DNA from: a virus
Length of the DNA: 30,857 bases
IMG/VR virus record: IMGVR_UViG_3300042565_000220
Location: 1-30,857 of that record
Direction: 5' to 3' (one strand)
Below are positions 3,986 to 30,857 of this stretch, one piece after another (within the stretch, counting starts at the first letter, position 1; every line of letters starts with the position of its first letter). The translations under genes and the position numbers were made by a program. The notes under the pieces were generated by a model that saw only the letters and a list, made by a program, of their open reading frames with translations, was not told where the DNA came from and searched no databases.

Positions 3986-5689
3986 ATGGCACTAACGGCA
4001 GCGATAGACCTAACGGTCAAAAAACCTGACTTCAAGTCAATGAAGTCGGAGATTAGAGAATTAACCGTCCAAGCACAACAGGCGGTGATGCAGTTTGGTG
4101 AGTTTTCTCCCGAAGCGATAAGGGCAGAACAAGCACTTGCACAAGCTCGTGACCGAATGGATGACTTCAATGACCGAGTTGCAGCAGTAAACCCCGACAA
4201 GTTTGCTCAAATCAATACGGTTGTTCAAGGAGTTGCTCGTGGATTTCAAGCAGCACAAGGGGCAATGGCTCTCTTCGGAAATGAAAGCGAGGACTTGCAA
4301 AAGACAATGGTCAAGTTGCAAGGTGCGATGGCATTGGCTGAAGGACTTGAGGGACTTGGAAAAGTGAATCAGCAATTCACGGCATTGGCAAACACCATTA
4401 AAGGCAAGGTTGTAACTGCCTTTAGTACCTTGAGAGGTGCTATTATCGCATCAGGTATTGGTGCGTTGGCAATTGCATTGGGTTATGTGGTGGCAAACTT
4501 TGAAAAGGTCAGTCAAGTCGTATTGAAATTGATCCCCGGACTTGCCCAAGTTGGAAAGATTATCGGTAATTTGGTGCAACAATTTACGGATTTCATTGGT
4601 GTGACTTCAGCAGCGGAACGCTCATACAAGGCATTCTCCAAATCAATCACCACAACCAACGAGGACATTCAAGGTCAAATTGACTTGCTTTCCGTTCAAG
4701 GCAACAAGGAACTTGAAATCTTTGAACTGCGAAAAAAAATCATCAATAACCAGTTGGCATTGATTGCAAAGAGAAAAGAGACAGGTGTAAAATTGACAGA
4801 GGATGAATTGGAGGAAGAAGCAAGATTGTATCGTGAGCTGAATAACAAATTGAAGGTGACCGATGCAGAGCGTGACAAATATGTAGCAGACAAAGAGAAG
4901 GAAGCCGAAGCCAAACGCAAAGAACATCGGAAGAGATTGCAAGACATAGACAATCAAATTGAGGACGAGAAACTGAAGAAAAGAATCACCAATACTGAAG
5001 ATGAATTTAAGAGATTAGGTGCAGAACAAGTTGCTCAAATCACTCAATTATCACGATGGTATGCCGAGCAAATTGCTATGGCTGAAGGCAATGAAGAGGA
5101 GATTCAAAAGATTGACAAATTGTATGCAGAGAAGGCACTTGCAAACGAGGCAGAGTTCAACCAAAAAAGAATTGAGCTGAATAGAAAAGCGGATCAACAA
5201 ATAATGGATGCAAAGTTGTCAATGGCAAAAAGCACCGTTGATGGCTTGACTTCGTTGAATACCATCCTAACTAACGAGGAGAAGAAGAGAGAGAACATTC
5301 AAAAGGGTATCGCATTGGTTGAGATTGCAATTGATAGTGCGGTGGCGTTTTCAGGTTTGAATGCGGAATCTGCTCAAGCATCTGCAAAGGTTGCGGGTAT
5401 TCTTGGACCAGCAACTCCCATCTTCACCGCTGCATACTATGCACAAGGTGTTGCAAGAATCTTGGCGAATGTCGCAAGAGCAAAACAATTGTTGTCAGGA
5501 AGTAGTGCATCACAAGGTGGTTTAACTGGAGGCACTCCCATATCAATTAACCCAACAAGTATCACTTCATCATCCCTTCCAAGTGAAACAGGAATTGGAT
5601 TTTCGCAGAGAGTATTTGTGACCGAAGGGGACATAACTCGCACACAAGCAAGAGTCGGAAACACCAAAAGAGTATCCGTTGTGAAATAA
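3986..5689 (+). CDS. Tail tape measure protein
   Basis: A 567-residue protein. The N-terminal 130 residues are helical and alanine/glutamine rich, including VARGFQAAQGAMALFGNES, a pattern typical of Bacteroidetes phage tape measures. A hydrophobic segment (about 150-171, GAIIASGIGALAIALGYVVA) is a membrane-insertion candidate; a second apolar stretch lies at about 175-205. Residues 240-405 are strongly charged and predicted coiled coil. The C-terminus is low-complexity. At about 1.5 angstrom per residue the length implies a tail of roughly 85 nm, a family rule of thumb rather than a measurement. It starts 3 bases after the tail hub gene. It is not directly preceded by the tail chaperones, which lie two genes further upstream across the circular junction. 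Confidence 0.85.
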   Translation: MALTAAIDLTVKKPDFKSMKSEIRELTVQAQQAVMQFGEFSPEAIRAEQALAQARDRMDDFNDRVAAVNPDKFAQINTVVQGVARGFQAAQGAMALFGNESEDLQKTMVKLQGAMALAEGLEGLGKVNQQFTALANTIKGKVVTAFSTLRGAIIASGIGALAIALGYVVANFEKVSQVVLKLIPGLAQVGKIIGNLVQQFTDFIGVTSAAERSYKAFSKSITTTNEDIQGQIDLLSVQGNKELEIFELRKKIINNQLALIAKRKETGVKLTEDELEEEARLYRELNNKLKVTDAERDKYVADKEKEAEAKRKEHRKRLQDIDNQIEDEKLKKRITNTEDEFKRLGAEQVAQITQLSRWYAEQIAMAEGNEEEIQKIDKLYAEKALANEAEFNQKRIELNRKADQQIMDAKLSMAKSTVDGLTSLNTILTNEEKKRENIQKGIALVEIAIDSAVAFSGLNAESAQASAKVAGILGPATPIFTAAYYAQGVARILANVARAKQLLSGSSASQGGLTGGTPISINPTSITSSSLPSETGIGFSQRVFVTEGDITRTQARVGNTKRVSVVK

Positions 5690-27276: not shown

Positions 27277-27458
27277 AGAAAACTTGGAGGGGGTTGGATG
27301 TTTACCCACCCATTGACGATGAGCTGAAGTTGGTTCACACCAATCAAGGTGAGTTCACTCTTGCTCGTTACATTGACGAGATGTGGATTGACGAACACAC
27401 CAACAGGTTGCTTGAGGTCGTGTACTGGATGCCTATACCAATTTTGCCAAACGAATGA
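27273..27458 (+). CDS. DUF551-like small protein
   Basis: A 61-residue protein: KKTWRGLDVYPPIDDELKLV, then LARYIDEMWIDEHTNRL and a final VVYWMPIPILPNE. The ending, a strand followed by xxxWMPIPxxP, is characteristic of DUF551 phage proteins. Function unknown. Overlaps the glycosyltransferase by 4 bases. Confidence 0.65.
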   Translation: MKKTWRGLDVYPPIDDELKLVHTNQGEFTLARYIDEMWIDEHTNRLLEVVYWMPIPILPNE

Positions 27459-28441
27459 AGATCCTGATTCTCACCGATGGAATGAATGGTGTGGTGTATC
27501 ACCGCATCTACACTCCGCACCTTCGTTTGCAGTTGGACGGACAAGCGACAATTGATGTCTGCCAATCCCAAGAGGAGTGGATGACCATTGACTTCAAATT
27601 GTACGATGTGATTGTGTTCTCCCGATGGCTCGGAAAATACCACTATGATATTCTCAAGCGGATCGCTGATGCTGGGAAACCCTATGTCATAGATGTGGAT
27701 GACTATTGGGTACTCCCAAAATACAACCCGGCTTATTGGGCATACAGGAAGGGAATCAAGAACGCCATCAAGGATGCAATCCACTATGCGGATGCCGTCA
27801 TCACCACCACTCCGATGTTGGCAAAAGAGATACGCACCATCAACGAGAAGGTGTATGTCGTGCCGAACTGCTTGGACTTAACACACAACCAATGGTCGCA
27901 AATTAAGGAGAAAAATGAGACGGTGAAGATTGGATGGGTGGGAGGAATTACACACGAGGAGGACTTGAAGCTCATCGCTGATGACATCAACGCTATGGAT
28001 GTGGAGTTCTACATCGTTGGTTACACTCCGAGTGAGCATTGGAACAACATCGTCAAACTGATTCCAAAAGCCAAGATTGTAGAAGGCACAAGCGTGTGGG
28101 AATATGGCGAGGTATACAAGCACTTTGACTTTGTACTTGCACCCCTTCAGGACAACCACTTCAACCAATGCAAGAGTGAACTGAAGATTGTGGAGGCAGC
28201 AGCGTATAGCATCCCTATCATCTGCTCTGCGGTGTTCCCCTACCTTTACCACACATCAAACGATGGTGTGATATTCACCAACAAAAACAATTGGAAAGCA
28301 TCCATTGAAAAACTGATTCACGCTGGTCACTCGGTGAGACAATCTATGGGACGGAGTAACTTTGACTATTGCAACACTTATCACAATTTGGAACTGCACA
28401 ACCTTACTCGGTTGGCGGTTTACGATAAATTATGCAAATAA
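27455..28441 (+). CDS. Glycosyltransferase, GT-B fold (GT4-like)
   Basis: A 328-residue protein. The N-terminal half (ILILTDGMNGVVYHRIYTPH, YDVIVFSRW, YVIDVDDYWVLP, then DAVITTTPMLAKEI and VVPNCLDL) and C-terminal half (KIGWVGGITHEEDLKLIADD, VEFYIVGYTP, and KSELKIVEAAAYSIPIICS) follow the two Rossmann-like domains of GT-B enzymes; the last motif matches the GT4 nucleotide-sugar-binding region with its two Glu. Likely uses a UDP- or GDP-sugar. Acceptor unknown: DNA bases, virion protein or host surface glycan. It lies between the terminase subunits, with 10 bases of overlap with the large subunit. Confidence 0.8.
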   Translation: MKILILTDGMNGVVYHRIYTPHLRLQLDGQATIDVCQSQEEWMTIDFKLYDVIVFSRWLGKYHYDILKRIADAGKPYVIDVDDYWVLPKYNPAYWAYRKGIKNAIKDAIHYADAVITTTPMLAKEIRTINEKVYVVPNCLDLTHNQWSQIKEKNETVKIGWVGGITHEEDLKLIADDINAMDVEFYIVGYTPSEHWNNIVKLIPKAKIVEGTSVWEYGEVYKHFDFVLAPLQDNHFNQCKSELKIVEAAAYSIPIICSAVFPYLYHTSNDGVIFTNKNNWKASIEKLIHAGHSVRQSMGRSNFDYCNTYHNLELHNLTRLAVYDKLCK

Positions 28442-29619
28442 ACTACAAGCGACCATATGTCACCAGTTACCAACAAGCCATCCTTGATTGTGAGGAGAGG
28501 TTCACGATAACGGCTGCGTCTACCAAAACAGGCAAGACCGCATCGCACATCATATGGTTGTTTGAACAAGCTCTCAAGTGCAAGGATGGACAATCGGTTT
28601 GGTGGGTTGCACCTGTTTACCAACAAGCGGAGATTGCATTCCGAAGGATGAAGACACAAGTCAATGACCGGGACTTCTTCCAAAGCAACGAGACCAAGTT
28701 GTTGCTCACTCTTCCAACAGGATCTCGCATTGAGTTCAAGTCAGGCGAGAAACCCGACAACCTTTATGGAGACGATGTGTTTGCTGCGGTCATTGATGAG
28801 GCGAGTCGTATGCGTGAGGAGTCGTGGTATGCGATGCGTTCAACCCTAACCGCCACACAAGGCAAGTGCAAGTTGATTGGGAATGTCAAAGGCAAAAAGA
28901 ACTGGTTCTACAAGTTGGGAGAAAGAGCGAGGAGCGGAGAGAATGACTATCGCTATTTCAAAATAACCGCTTACGATGCAGTCAAGGAGGGTATTCTCAA
29001 ACTTGAGGAGGTAGAACAAGCCAAGCGTGACCTTCCTGAAAATGTATTCAACGAGTTGTATCTTGCAGAACCAGCGGATGACAAGACCAACCCTTTTGGA
29101 ATTGACAACATCCGCAGATGTTACCGACCTGTATCACGAGGAACGGTTGTCGCTTGGGGAATTGACCTTGCAAAATACTCGGACTATACCGTCATCGTTG
29201 GATTGGATGCCAACAATCAATGTGCGTATGTTGACCGATTCCAAGCGGATTGGGGCATCACCCAAGACCGCATCATTCGGTTGATTGGAAACACTCCAGC
29301 GTTCATTGATAGCACCGGTGTTGGTGATCCTATCGTTGAGCAAATCCAAAGGGTATGTCAAAGAGTCAAGGGATTTAAGTTCACATCACAATCCAAGCAA
29401 CAACTAATTGAGGGACTCGTTCTCTCCGTTCAACAAAACTCGGTGTTCTTCCCTGAAGAACCAATCGGCTCGGAGATGGAGAACTTTGAATTTGAATACA
29501 CACGAACTGGTGTGAGATACACCGCACCATCAGGACTCCACGATGACTGCGTGATGGCTCTCGCATTGGCAGTTGATTGCAAGTCACACAATAGACCGGG
29601 AACTTTTTACTTTGCATAA
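28432..29619 (+). CDS. terL: Terminase large subunit
   Basis: A 395-residue protein. ATPase: Walker A-like ASTKTGKT (about 29-36), Walker B AVIDEA (Asp122, Glu123), coupling motif GNVKG (150-154). Nuclease (RNase H-like): GIDLAKYSD (Asp245), FIDSTGVGD (Asp293), LHDDCVMALA (Asp371/372). Both halves needed to package and cut DNA are intact. The deviant Walker A (S/T-rich rather than GxxGxGKS) is common in phage terminases. It overlaps the glycosyltransferase and is followed 2 bases later by the tail chaperone gene. Confidence 0.93.
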   Translation: MQINYKRPYVTSYQQAILDCEERFTITAASTKTGKTASHIIWLFEQALKCKDGQSVWWVAPVYQQAEIAFRRMKTQVNDRDFFQSNETKLLLTLPTGSRIEFKSGEKPDNLYGDDVFAAVIDEASRMREESWYAMRSTLTATQGKCKLIGNVKGKKNWFYKLGERARSGENDYRYFKITAYDAVKEGILKLEEVEQAKRDLPENVFNELYLAEPADDKTNPFGIDNIRRCYRPVSRGTVVAWGIDLAKYSDYTVIVGLDANNQCAYVDRFQADWGITQDRIIRLIGNTPAFIDSTGVGDPIVEQIQRVCQRVKGFKFTSQSKQQLIEGLVLSVQQNSVFFPEEPIGSEMENFEFEYTRTGVRYTAPSGLHDDCVMALALAVDCKSHNRPGTFYFA

Positions 29620-29621
29620 TT

Positions 29622-30170
29622 ATGAAATGGAATAACATAACCATCTACCAACTGCAAGAGATTCACTCTTGTCGTGATATGTCTCACATTGAGAAAACAA
29701 TGAACACCCTTGCCATCGTCAAAGATTGGTCAATGGACAAGGTAGAGTCAATGCCGATTGATGAGCTGACAAACGAACTGAAGAAGTTGGAGTTCTTGAA
29801 CACACTCCCAACCGACAAGGTGCGATTCTCTTTCCGAAATCGTGGAAGGCGTTGGAAGTTGGCCAAGACAACAAACGAGATTTGCGGACACCACTTCATT
29901 GAACTCCAGCAAGTATTCAACGGTGATATGATTGAGTCGCTCCACAAAGTGATGGCGTTGCTGACTTACGAGGTGGATTTGTTGGGACGCACAAAGAAGG
30001 TGACCGATGCACAGGCACACTATCAAGAGAAGTGTGAATTGTTCTTGTCCCTTCCAGTTACCACCGCATATTCCTATGCAGTTTTTTTTTCGGCAGTTTA
30101 TCCCAAGTTATTGGAAACTATCCTAACCTATTTGAAGGAGGAGATGAACCAATTGAAACGGGAAGCGTAA
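29622..30170 (+). CDS. Tail assembly chaperone, short form (gpG-like)
   Basis: A 182-residue protein: NITIYQLQEIHSCRDMSHIE, AIVKDWSMDKVESMPIDELT, then a strand-rich middle and a C-terminal helix AYSYAVFFSAVYPKLLETIL. The first residues (ITIYQ.Q.I), the W..D..E.MP.DEL segment and the FF..VYPK...... helix resemble tail chaperones of Bacteroidetes phages. Near its end it has a T9 run (30082-30090, codons GTT TTT TTT TCG); the -1 frame from there is open for 96 codons, giving a predicted long form. Such pairs assist tube polymerisation around the tape measure. Confidence 0.7.
   Translation: MKWNNITIYQLQEIHSCRDMSHIEKTMNTLAIVKDWSMDKVESMPIDELTNELKKLEFLNTLPTDKVRFSFRNRGRRWKLAKTTNEICGHHFIELQQVFNGDMIESLHKVMALLTYEVDLLGRTKKVTDAQAHYQEKCELFLSLPVTTAYSYAVFFSAVYPKLLETILTYLKEEMNQLKREA
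30082..30090 (+). promoter_or_regulatory. Slippery T9 frameshift site
   Basis: Nine consecutive T preceded by G and followed by C; in the zero frame the codons are GTT TTT TTT TCG. T TTT TTT fits the X XXY YYZ rule for -1 slippage, since every tRNA contact can re-pair. Confidence 0.7.
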
Positions 30171-30379
30171 GTCCATTAGCGTGGTTGGAATTAGTTGACA
30201 AGATTGTCAAAGGGGATCGGACAAAATGGGACACTATCTTGCAGATGCCGTTGATTGAGTTCCTGAACACGATTGCTTTCTACAAGGCCAAGACAAAAGA
30301 GAGGCAGAAACGATTGGAGCAGTCAGCGACAAAGGGATTTAACGCATATGTCGTGGCTTGTTTGAACGAGATGTTGTAA
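30089..30379 (+). CDS. Tail chaperone -1 frameshift extension (gpT-like)
   Basis: From the T9 slippery run the -1 frame stays open without a stop to 30379, past the zero-frame stop at 30168-30170. The shift would add GSLSQVIGNYPNLFEGGDEP, then a SVSPLAWLELVDKI stretch and an IEFLNTIAFYKAKTKERQKR helix, making a fusion of about 252 residues against 182 for the short form. The segment after 30185 could be read as a separate 64-residue protein from TTG 30185, but the open join and slippery site favour frameshifting, as in lambda gpG-gpGT. Alternative: RNA polymerase slippage on the T run. Confidence 0.7.
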   Translation, partial: FGSLSQVIGNYPNLFEGGDEPIETGSVSPLAWLELVDKIVKGDRTKWDTILQMPLIEFLNTIAFYKAKTKERQKRLEQSATKGFNAYVVACLNEML

Positions 30380-30713: not shown

Positions 30714-30747
30714 TTGGGACGCATACCTTGAACCGCTATTTTCTATC
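30714..30747 (+). promoter_or_regulatory. Promoter for tail operon (spans the junction)
   Basis: In the right-hand copy, TTG at 30714-30716 is followed after 20 bases by TATTTTC at 30737-30743, and GTG begins at 30748. The same element is at 7-13 in the left copy. The spacing is the same TTG-N20 seen at three other promoters in this genome and fits the Bacteroidetes -33/-7 arrangement, although the -7 box is a deviant of TAnnTTTG. The core CGCTATTTTCTATC belongs to a family of four similar elements set 11-12 bases before structural start codons. Confidence 0.6.
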
Positions 30748-30857
30748 GTGGCACTATCTATCACACAACAACCAAACGAGTATGCTCCAGCGTACAATGA
30801 TACCAACTTTGTAATTACGGAGTCATCAGGTGGCATCTACACAAAGGACAATTTCAA
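30731..30857. repeat. Terminal direct repeat, right copy
   Basis: Exact second copy of bases 1-127. It repeats the start of the first tail gene: its GTG start falls at 30748 and the reading frame runs off the end of the window. It should be trimmed rather than annotated as a second truncated gene. Confidence 0.95.

Follow-up and report, generated by a model that had tools for sequence, protein, structure and literature searches.

A conserved run of at least nine T residues as a probable transcriptional slippage site in a predicted tail assembly chaperone gene of a widespread phage group

The IMG/VR virus record IMGVR_UViG_3300042565_000220, analysed here over its whole length of 30,857 nt (the window), contains a gene at 29622–30170 with a run of nine T residues (T9) near its 3′ end. 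We propose that the host RNA polymerase probably slips at this run in a programmed way, that the gene is itself a likely tail assembly chaperone gene, and that a shift into the −1 frame adds a second, longer product to the one read in the zero frame. The elements of the site are as follows.

29622–30170, + strand: zero-frame open reading frame (ORF) of 182 residues, made up of N-domain residues 1–156 and a 26-residue zero-frame tail; the putative G-like short form.
30082–30090, + strand: the T9 run, candidate site of slippage, in the register GTT TTT TTT TCG, with the heptamer T_TTT_TTT in register at 30083–30089.
30089–30379, + strand: −1 frame tail of 96 residues plus stop, which joined to residues 1–156 would form a 252-residue GT-like product.

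In the −1 frame no stop occurs between 30038 and the one at 30377–30379, and the zero frame ends at 30170. A first-pass annotation made from the sequence alone had described the −1 frame as open from the run to 30379 and as beginning before the zero-frame stop, and it placed the run near the end of the short form; all three statements hold, with the shift falling after residue 156 of 182. Within the window sequence, the −1 frame contains no ATG, GTG or TTG between its upstream stop and the T run, and its earliest start-like codon is a TTG at 30185, 32 codons past the shift point. Because the −1 frame lacks a start codon both before the run and in its vicinity, the gene is predicted to yield both the 182- and the 252-residue products from one reading start, a conclusion that is strongly supported. 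The run is the only one of eight or more T residues in the whole 30.7-kb window, and in the predicted fold it coincides with the close of the final helix, the boundary of the N-domain.

Conservation of the run and of the −1 tail is far beyond chance. In every tblastn-confirmed relative (74–99% protein identity) whose contig extends far enough, both T9 and the −1 tail are present. Wider searches (first survey) gave 261 loci among the matches listed, and each of the 247 complete ones has at least nine T in the corresponding place and carries its tail in the −1 frame. In a second survey, queried with one distant member and, separately, with the −1 tail alone, the 158 testable loci followed the same rule (158/158); about half of these were found through the −1 tail only, independently of the run, and the rule was unchanged. 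The surveys overlap, with some contigs recurring, and include 183 distinct 42-nt site contexts. Two scans confirmed at least 595 and at least 593 relatives, respectively, and the true membership is larger. In the window family, zero-frame third-position variation collapses inside the two-frame overlap. One locus, L029, ends in a contig-edge artefact.

The family divides into the window group and a group resembling Nonlabens phage P12024S, and profile alignment indicates that the two are homologous in both parts of the gene. Their N-domains align over the full length (hhalign 76%, E 2.4e-5), and their −1 tails give a stronger match (hhalign 93.8%, E 1.8e-7). P12024S is an isolate, reached through the portal protein; its gp38 and gp39 follow TerL (the terminase large subunit) and carry T9 in the same register, and a Galbibacter contig also keeps the arrangement. 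The annotated gp39 (L036:23570–23830) starts from an internal ATG, though the conserved reading begins at the T9 run. In two other flavobacterial phages, P12002L and 11b, the regions examined contain no obvious counterpart of the T9 fusion. Three members (L176, L180 and L181) lie in metagenome-assembled genome (MAG) contigs labelled Epsilonproteobacteria, Euryarchaeota and Pseudooceanicola, perhaps through misbinning. Among the loci read, we found no relative with one continuous frame, a case that the first-pass annotation had set against its proposal, and the slippery site and the two-frame overlap, whose conservation it had suggested checking, are kept in every one. The programmed −1 fusion that it placed at the T9 run is thus strongly supported by conservation.

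The site follows a simple rule: at least nine T, in any codon phase. The 247 complete loci comprise 215 with T9, 29 with T10, one with T11 and two with T12; the run is in phase 1 in 230 of them, in phase 0 in 16 and in phase 2 in one. The surveyed loci include no T7, T8 or UUUUUUC-type site. All 41 clusters formed at 70% protein identity obey the rule, including nine whose site is not a phase-1 T9. The codon that follows the two phenylalanine codons (FF) is TAT, TAC, TGG, TCG, TTG, TTC or TTT, always T-initial except for CTG, and T-initial codons make up only 19% of the codons in these genes. The flanks compensate, a T lost on one side being gained on the other: CTG follows FF only when the 5′ codon is TTT (5/5 versus 13/178), and AGT is the 5′ codon only when TTT comes after FF (2/2 versus 3/181), counts that include related sequences and few independent events and so show a direction rather than a true probability.

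Across the same 41 clusters there is no folding signal for a conserved stem-loop in the 40–60 nt upstream or the 60–100 nt downstream (mean z 0.0 to 0.3; 0.2–0.3 downstream of the run, for stem-loop folding only, pseudoknots being outside the model). Shine-Dalgarno-like 5-mers upstream are found in 0/41. In the window genome an inverted repeat, GCATA-TTCC-TATGC, at 30064–30079, just 5′ of T9, resembles an intrinsic terminator. This terminator-like hairpin (z −3.5 in the window) was considered as a signal and rejected, since relatives do not keep it.

Transcriptional slippage is favoured over ribosomal slippage by the minimum of nine T, the occurrence of all three phases, the flank compensation and the lack of a downstream structure or Shine-Dalgarno-like stimulator. 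A length rule that is blind to codon phase is a better fit to slippage by RNA polymerase than to ribosomal −1 slippage at U_UUU_UUU, and the site combines independence from codon phase with a T run whose length is conserved at nine or more. Slippage of bacterial RNA polymerase on tracts of nine A or T is an established phenomenon (PMC5009743). In the proposed mechanism, the polymerase crossing the run would add one U, or drop two, in a fraction of transcripts. The majority, with nine U, would give the 182-residue zero-frame protein, and transcripts with one U more or two fewer, translated normally, would give the 252-residue protein, its last 96 residues coming from the −1 frame; the two proteins would resemble lambda gpG and gpGT. 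Loss of a single U would lead to an early stop. That the polymerase slips rather than the ribosome, and the product ratio, we infer from the pattern of the sites; the two kinds of slippage could also act together. The first-pass annotation had preferred ribosomal frameshifting, which now appears less likely, and had offered slippage on T9 as the alternative, so that the order of the two is reversed. In the literature searched, which excluded subscription papers, no tail chaperone is credited to slippage; searches aimed at tail chaperone frameshifts in Bacteroidetes and at slippage in Flavobacteria likewise gave none among the results listed.

Several points weigh against the proposed explanation. 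The outer T residues of the commonest phase also have coding roles, for V, L or I in the zero frame and for L or F in the −1 frame, and these can account for part of the length rule; sites that violate these coding needs still carry at least nine T. Fisher p-values for the flank counts take related sequences to be independent and reflect few independent events, and the chaperone identity rests on the pairing of the ORFs, their place in the operon and fold matches that are weak. The tail chaperone fusions in the literature are put down to ribosomal frameshifting (PMC5009743), and every site contains an in-register X_XXY_YYZ heptamer, here T_TTT_TTT, so that ribosomal −1 slippage is possible at each one. 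The chief rival is classical −1 frameshifting, in which tandem tRNA-Phe slippage on U_UUU_UUU would produce the fusion from a single U9 mRNA; chaperone fusions in other systems arise by ribosomal slippage (PMC5009743). We consider it unlikely as the explanation here. The heptamer is inevitable in any run of nine or more and itself requires only seven T (six where UUC, UUA or UUG is the last codon), yet no run is shorter than nine; the codon phase varies, the flanks compensate, and neither a downstream stem-loop nor a Shine-Dalgarno-like motif is found in the 41 clusters. U_UUU_UUU is also reported to be much less shift-prone than A_AAA_AAG in Escherichia coli (PMC5009743).

A second rival, that the −1 ORF is a separate gene with its own start and no fusion occurs, matches the annotation of P12024S gp39 from an ATG within the tail, but is very improbable: the window offers no start codon from the upstream stop of the −1 frame to 32 codons beyond the run, and conservation of the −1 protein starts at the run. 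Homopolymers are error-prone, but a sequencing or assembly indel, a pseudogene or phase variation of a hypermutable tract in the genome can be dismissed almost entirely, since the tail is in the −1 frame in all relatives, which include one isolated phage and independent assemblies in the hundreds, and in the zero frame in none.

In most P12024S-like members (L113–L261), which form the larger sister group, the zero and −1 frames are both open after the run, with the zero frame extending 54–84 codons past it. This opening exceeds that expected from synonymous resampling of the −1 frame at p < 0.05 in 78% of the 41 clusters, and the +1 frame stops within 0–3 codons in most clusters. P12024S itself, L112, L180, L181 and the window family have shorter, unexceptional zero tails. 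A function for the zero-frame tail is possible on this pattern. We tentatively suggest, with somewhat less than even confidence in the joint claim, that a large phage group, probably of Bacteroidota, makes chaperone isoforms by programmed transcriptional slippage and that most of the P12024S-like clade obtains three products from each T run: one with a zero-frame tail of ~55–84 residues, one with a −1 tail of ~84–92 residues read from the same DNA, and a nearly tailless +1 form.

The assignment as a G/GT-like tail assembly chaperone is predicted from position and architecture, and we regard it as quite probable. As in chaperone genes of this type, two overlapping ORFs are joined by a shift near the end of the first. 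The protein family of the window has no Pfam match above cutoff, and no known tail assembly chaperone family is matched by sequence. P12024-type members match phrog_32199 and the window protein weakly matches phrog_10547, neither of which has an assigned function. Predicted structures (pLDDT 92 for the Galbibacter protein, L178, and 87 for the window protein) have their helices and strands in the same order; that of the window protein superposes on that of P12024S gp38 with Foldseek TM scores of 0.74/0.67 at 15% identity. There is no fold match in the PDB at E ≤ 0.001, and the sequence search of that database is also empty; in a viral fold library the named hits include three tail assembly chaperones, all weak (E 0.07–0.46). 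The fit to the lambda G/GT pair put forward in the first-pass annotation is one of analogy: no family is matched by sequence, the gene adjoins TerL instead of standing directly before the tape measure, and the fold matches are weak.

An exact 127-bp direct repeat occupies both ends of the record (1–127 and 30731–30857), which is thus complete, its map of 30,730 bp being circular or circularly permuted. Since the repeat closes the map, the gene at 29622–30170 is followed by a structural gene that spans the window start. Neighbouring genes are listed here.

27455–28441: glycosyltransferase gene (phrog_7162, E 9e-58), directly 5′ of the terminase gene.
28432–29619, + strand: TerL (PHROG phrog_2, E 3e-34), immediately 5′ of the frameshift gene.
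3986–5689, + strand: tape-measure-like protein, beyond the circular junction, with a short local match to L178:12832–14772.

The tape-measure-like gene is the third downstream of the frameshift gene on the same strand, with two genes between them, and is followed by a protease gene. Its resemblance to L178:12832–14772 is one short, weak local match (97 columns, 30% identity, single-comparison E 3e-9), and the L178 protein matches the tape-measure family phrog_1538 (E 2.3e-7). In the Galbibacter contig the order is TerL, the frameshift gene, four genes, the phrog_1538-like tape measure and a head protease. The segment 1142–3982 of the window encodes a structural protein of 946 residues that weakly matches a C1q domain (E 2.5e-4, under the curated cutoff); a Pfam EXS match of P0001 (E 0.03) is also under cutoff and is regarded as noise.

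Among tailed phages the tail chaperone fusion is conserved, and it is a textbook example of ribosomal frameshifting. If the slippage reading is true, the same kind of fusion is kept in a very common phage group by RNA polymerase instead of the ribosome; the fusion is of a known type, here with apparently different machinery for the shift. This also implies that automated gene calling overlooks or shortens the second product in many genomes, that of P12024S included.

The window gene resembles the lambda G/GT (and HK97-type) genes in its shared N-domain, in a longer form that would arise through a −1 shift late in the first ORF, and in lying ahead of a tape-measure-like gene on the same strand. 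It differs in having no detectable sequence family match, in adjoining TerL rather than directly preceding the tape measure, and in its homopolymer of at least nine T, where the lambda shift site is a heptamer. In Thermus thermophilus dnaX, homopolymer slippage likewise produces mixed mRNAs that are read normally to different C-termini, with other-frame stops nearby (PMC5009743), but the longer dnaX product is that of the zero frame, whereas in the window gene the zero and −1 frames both appear to be coding. Slippage in Shigella spa13 and in insertion sequences also extends a protein in another frame, and that in spa13 influences expression of Spa32, a needle-length determinant (PMC5009743); these are bacterial or insertion-element genes rather than a tail chaperone. 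The closest counterpart is the gp38/gp39 pair of P12024S, annotated as two hypothetical proteins with the second from an internal ATG, which has a homologous N-domain fold and −1 tail and the same T9 register and place after TerL.
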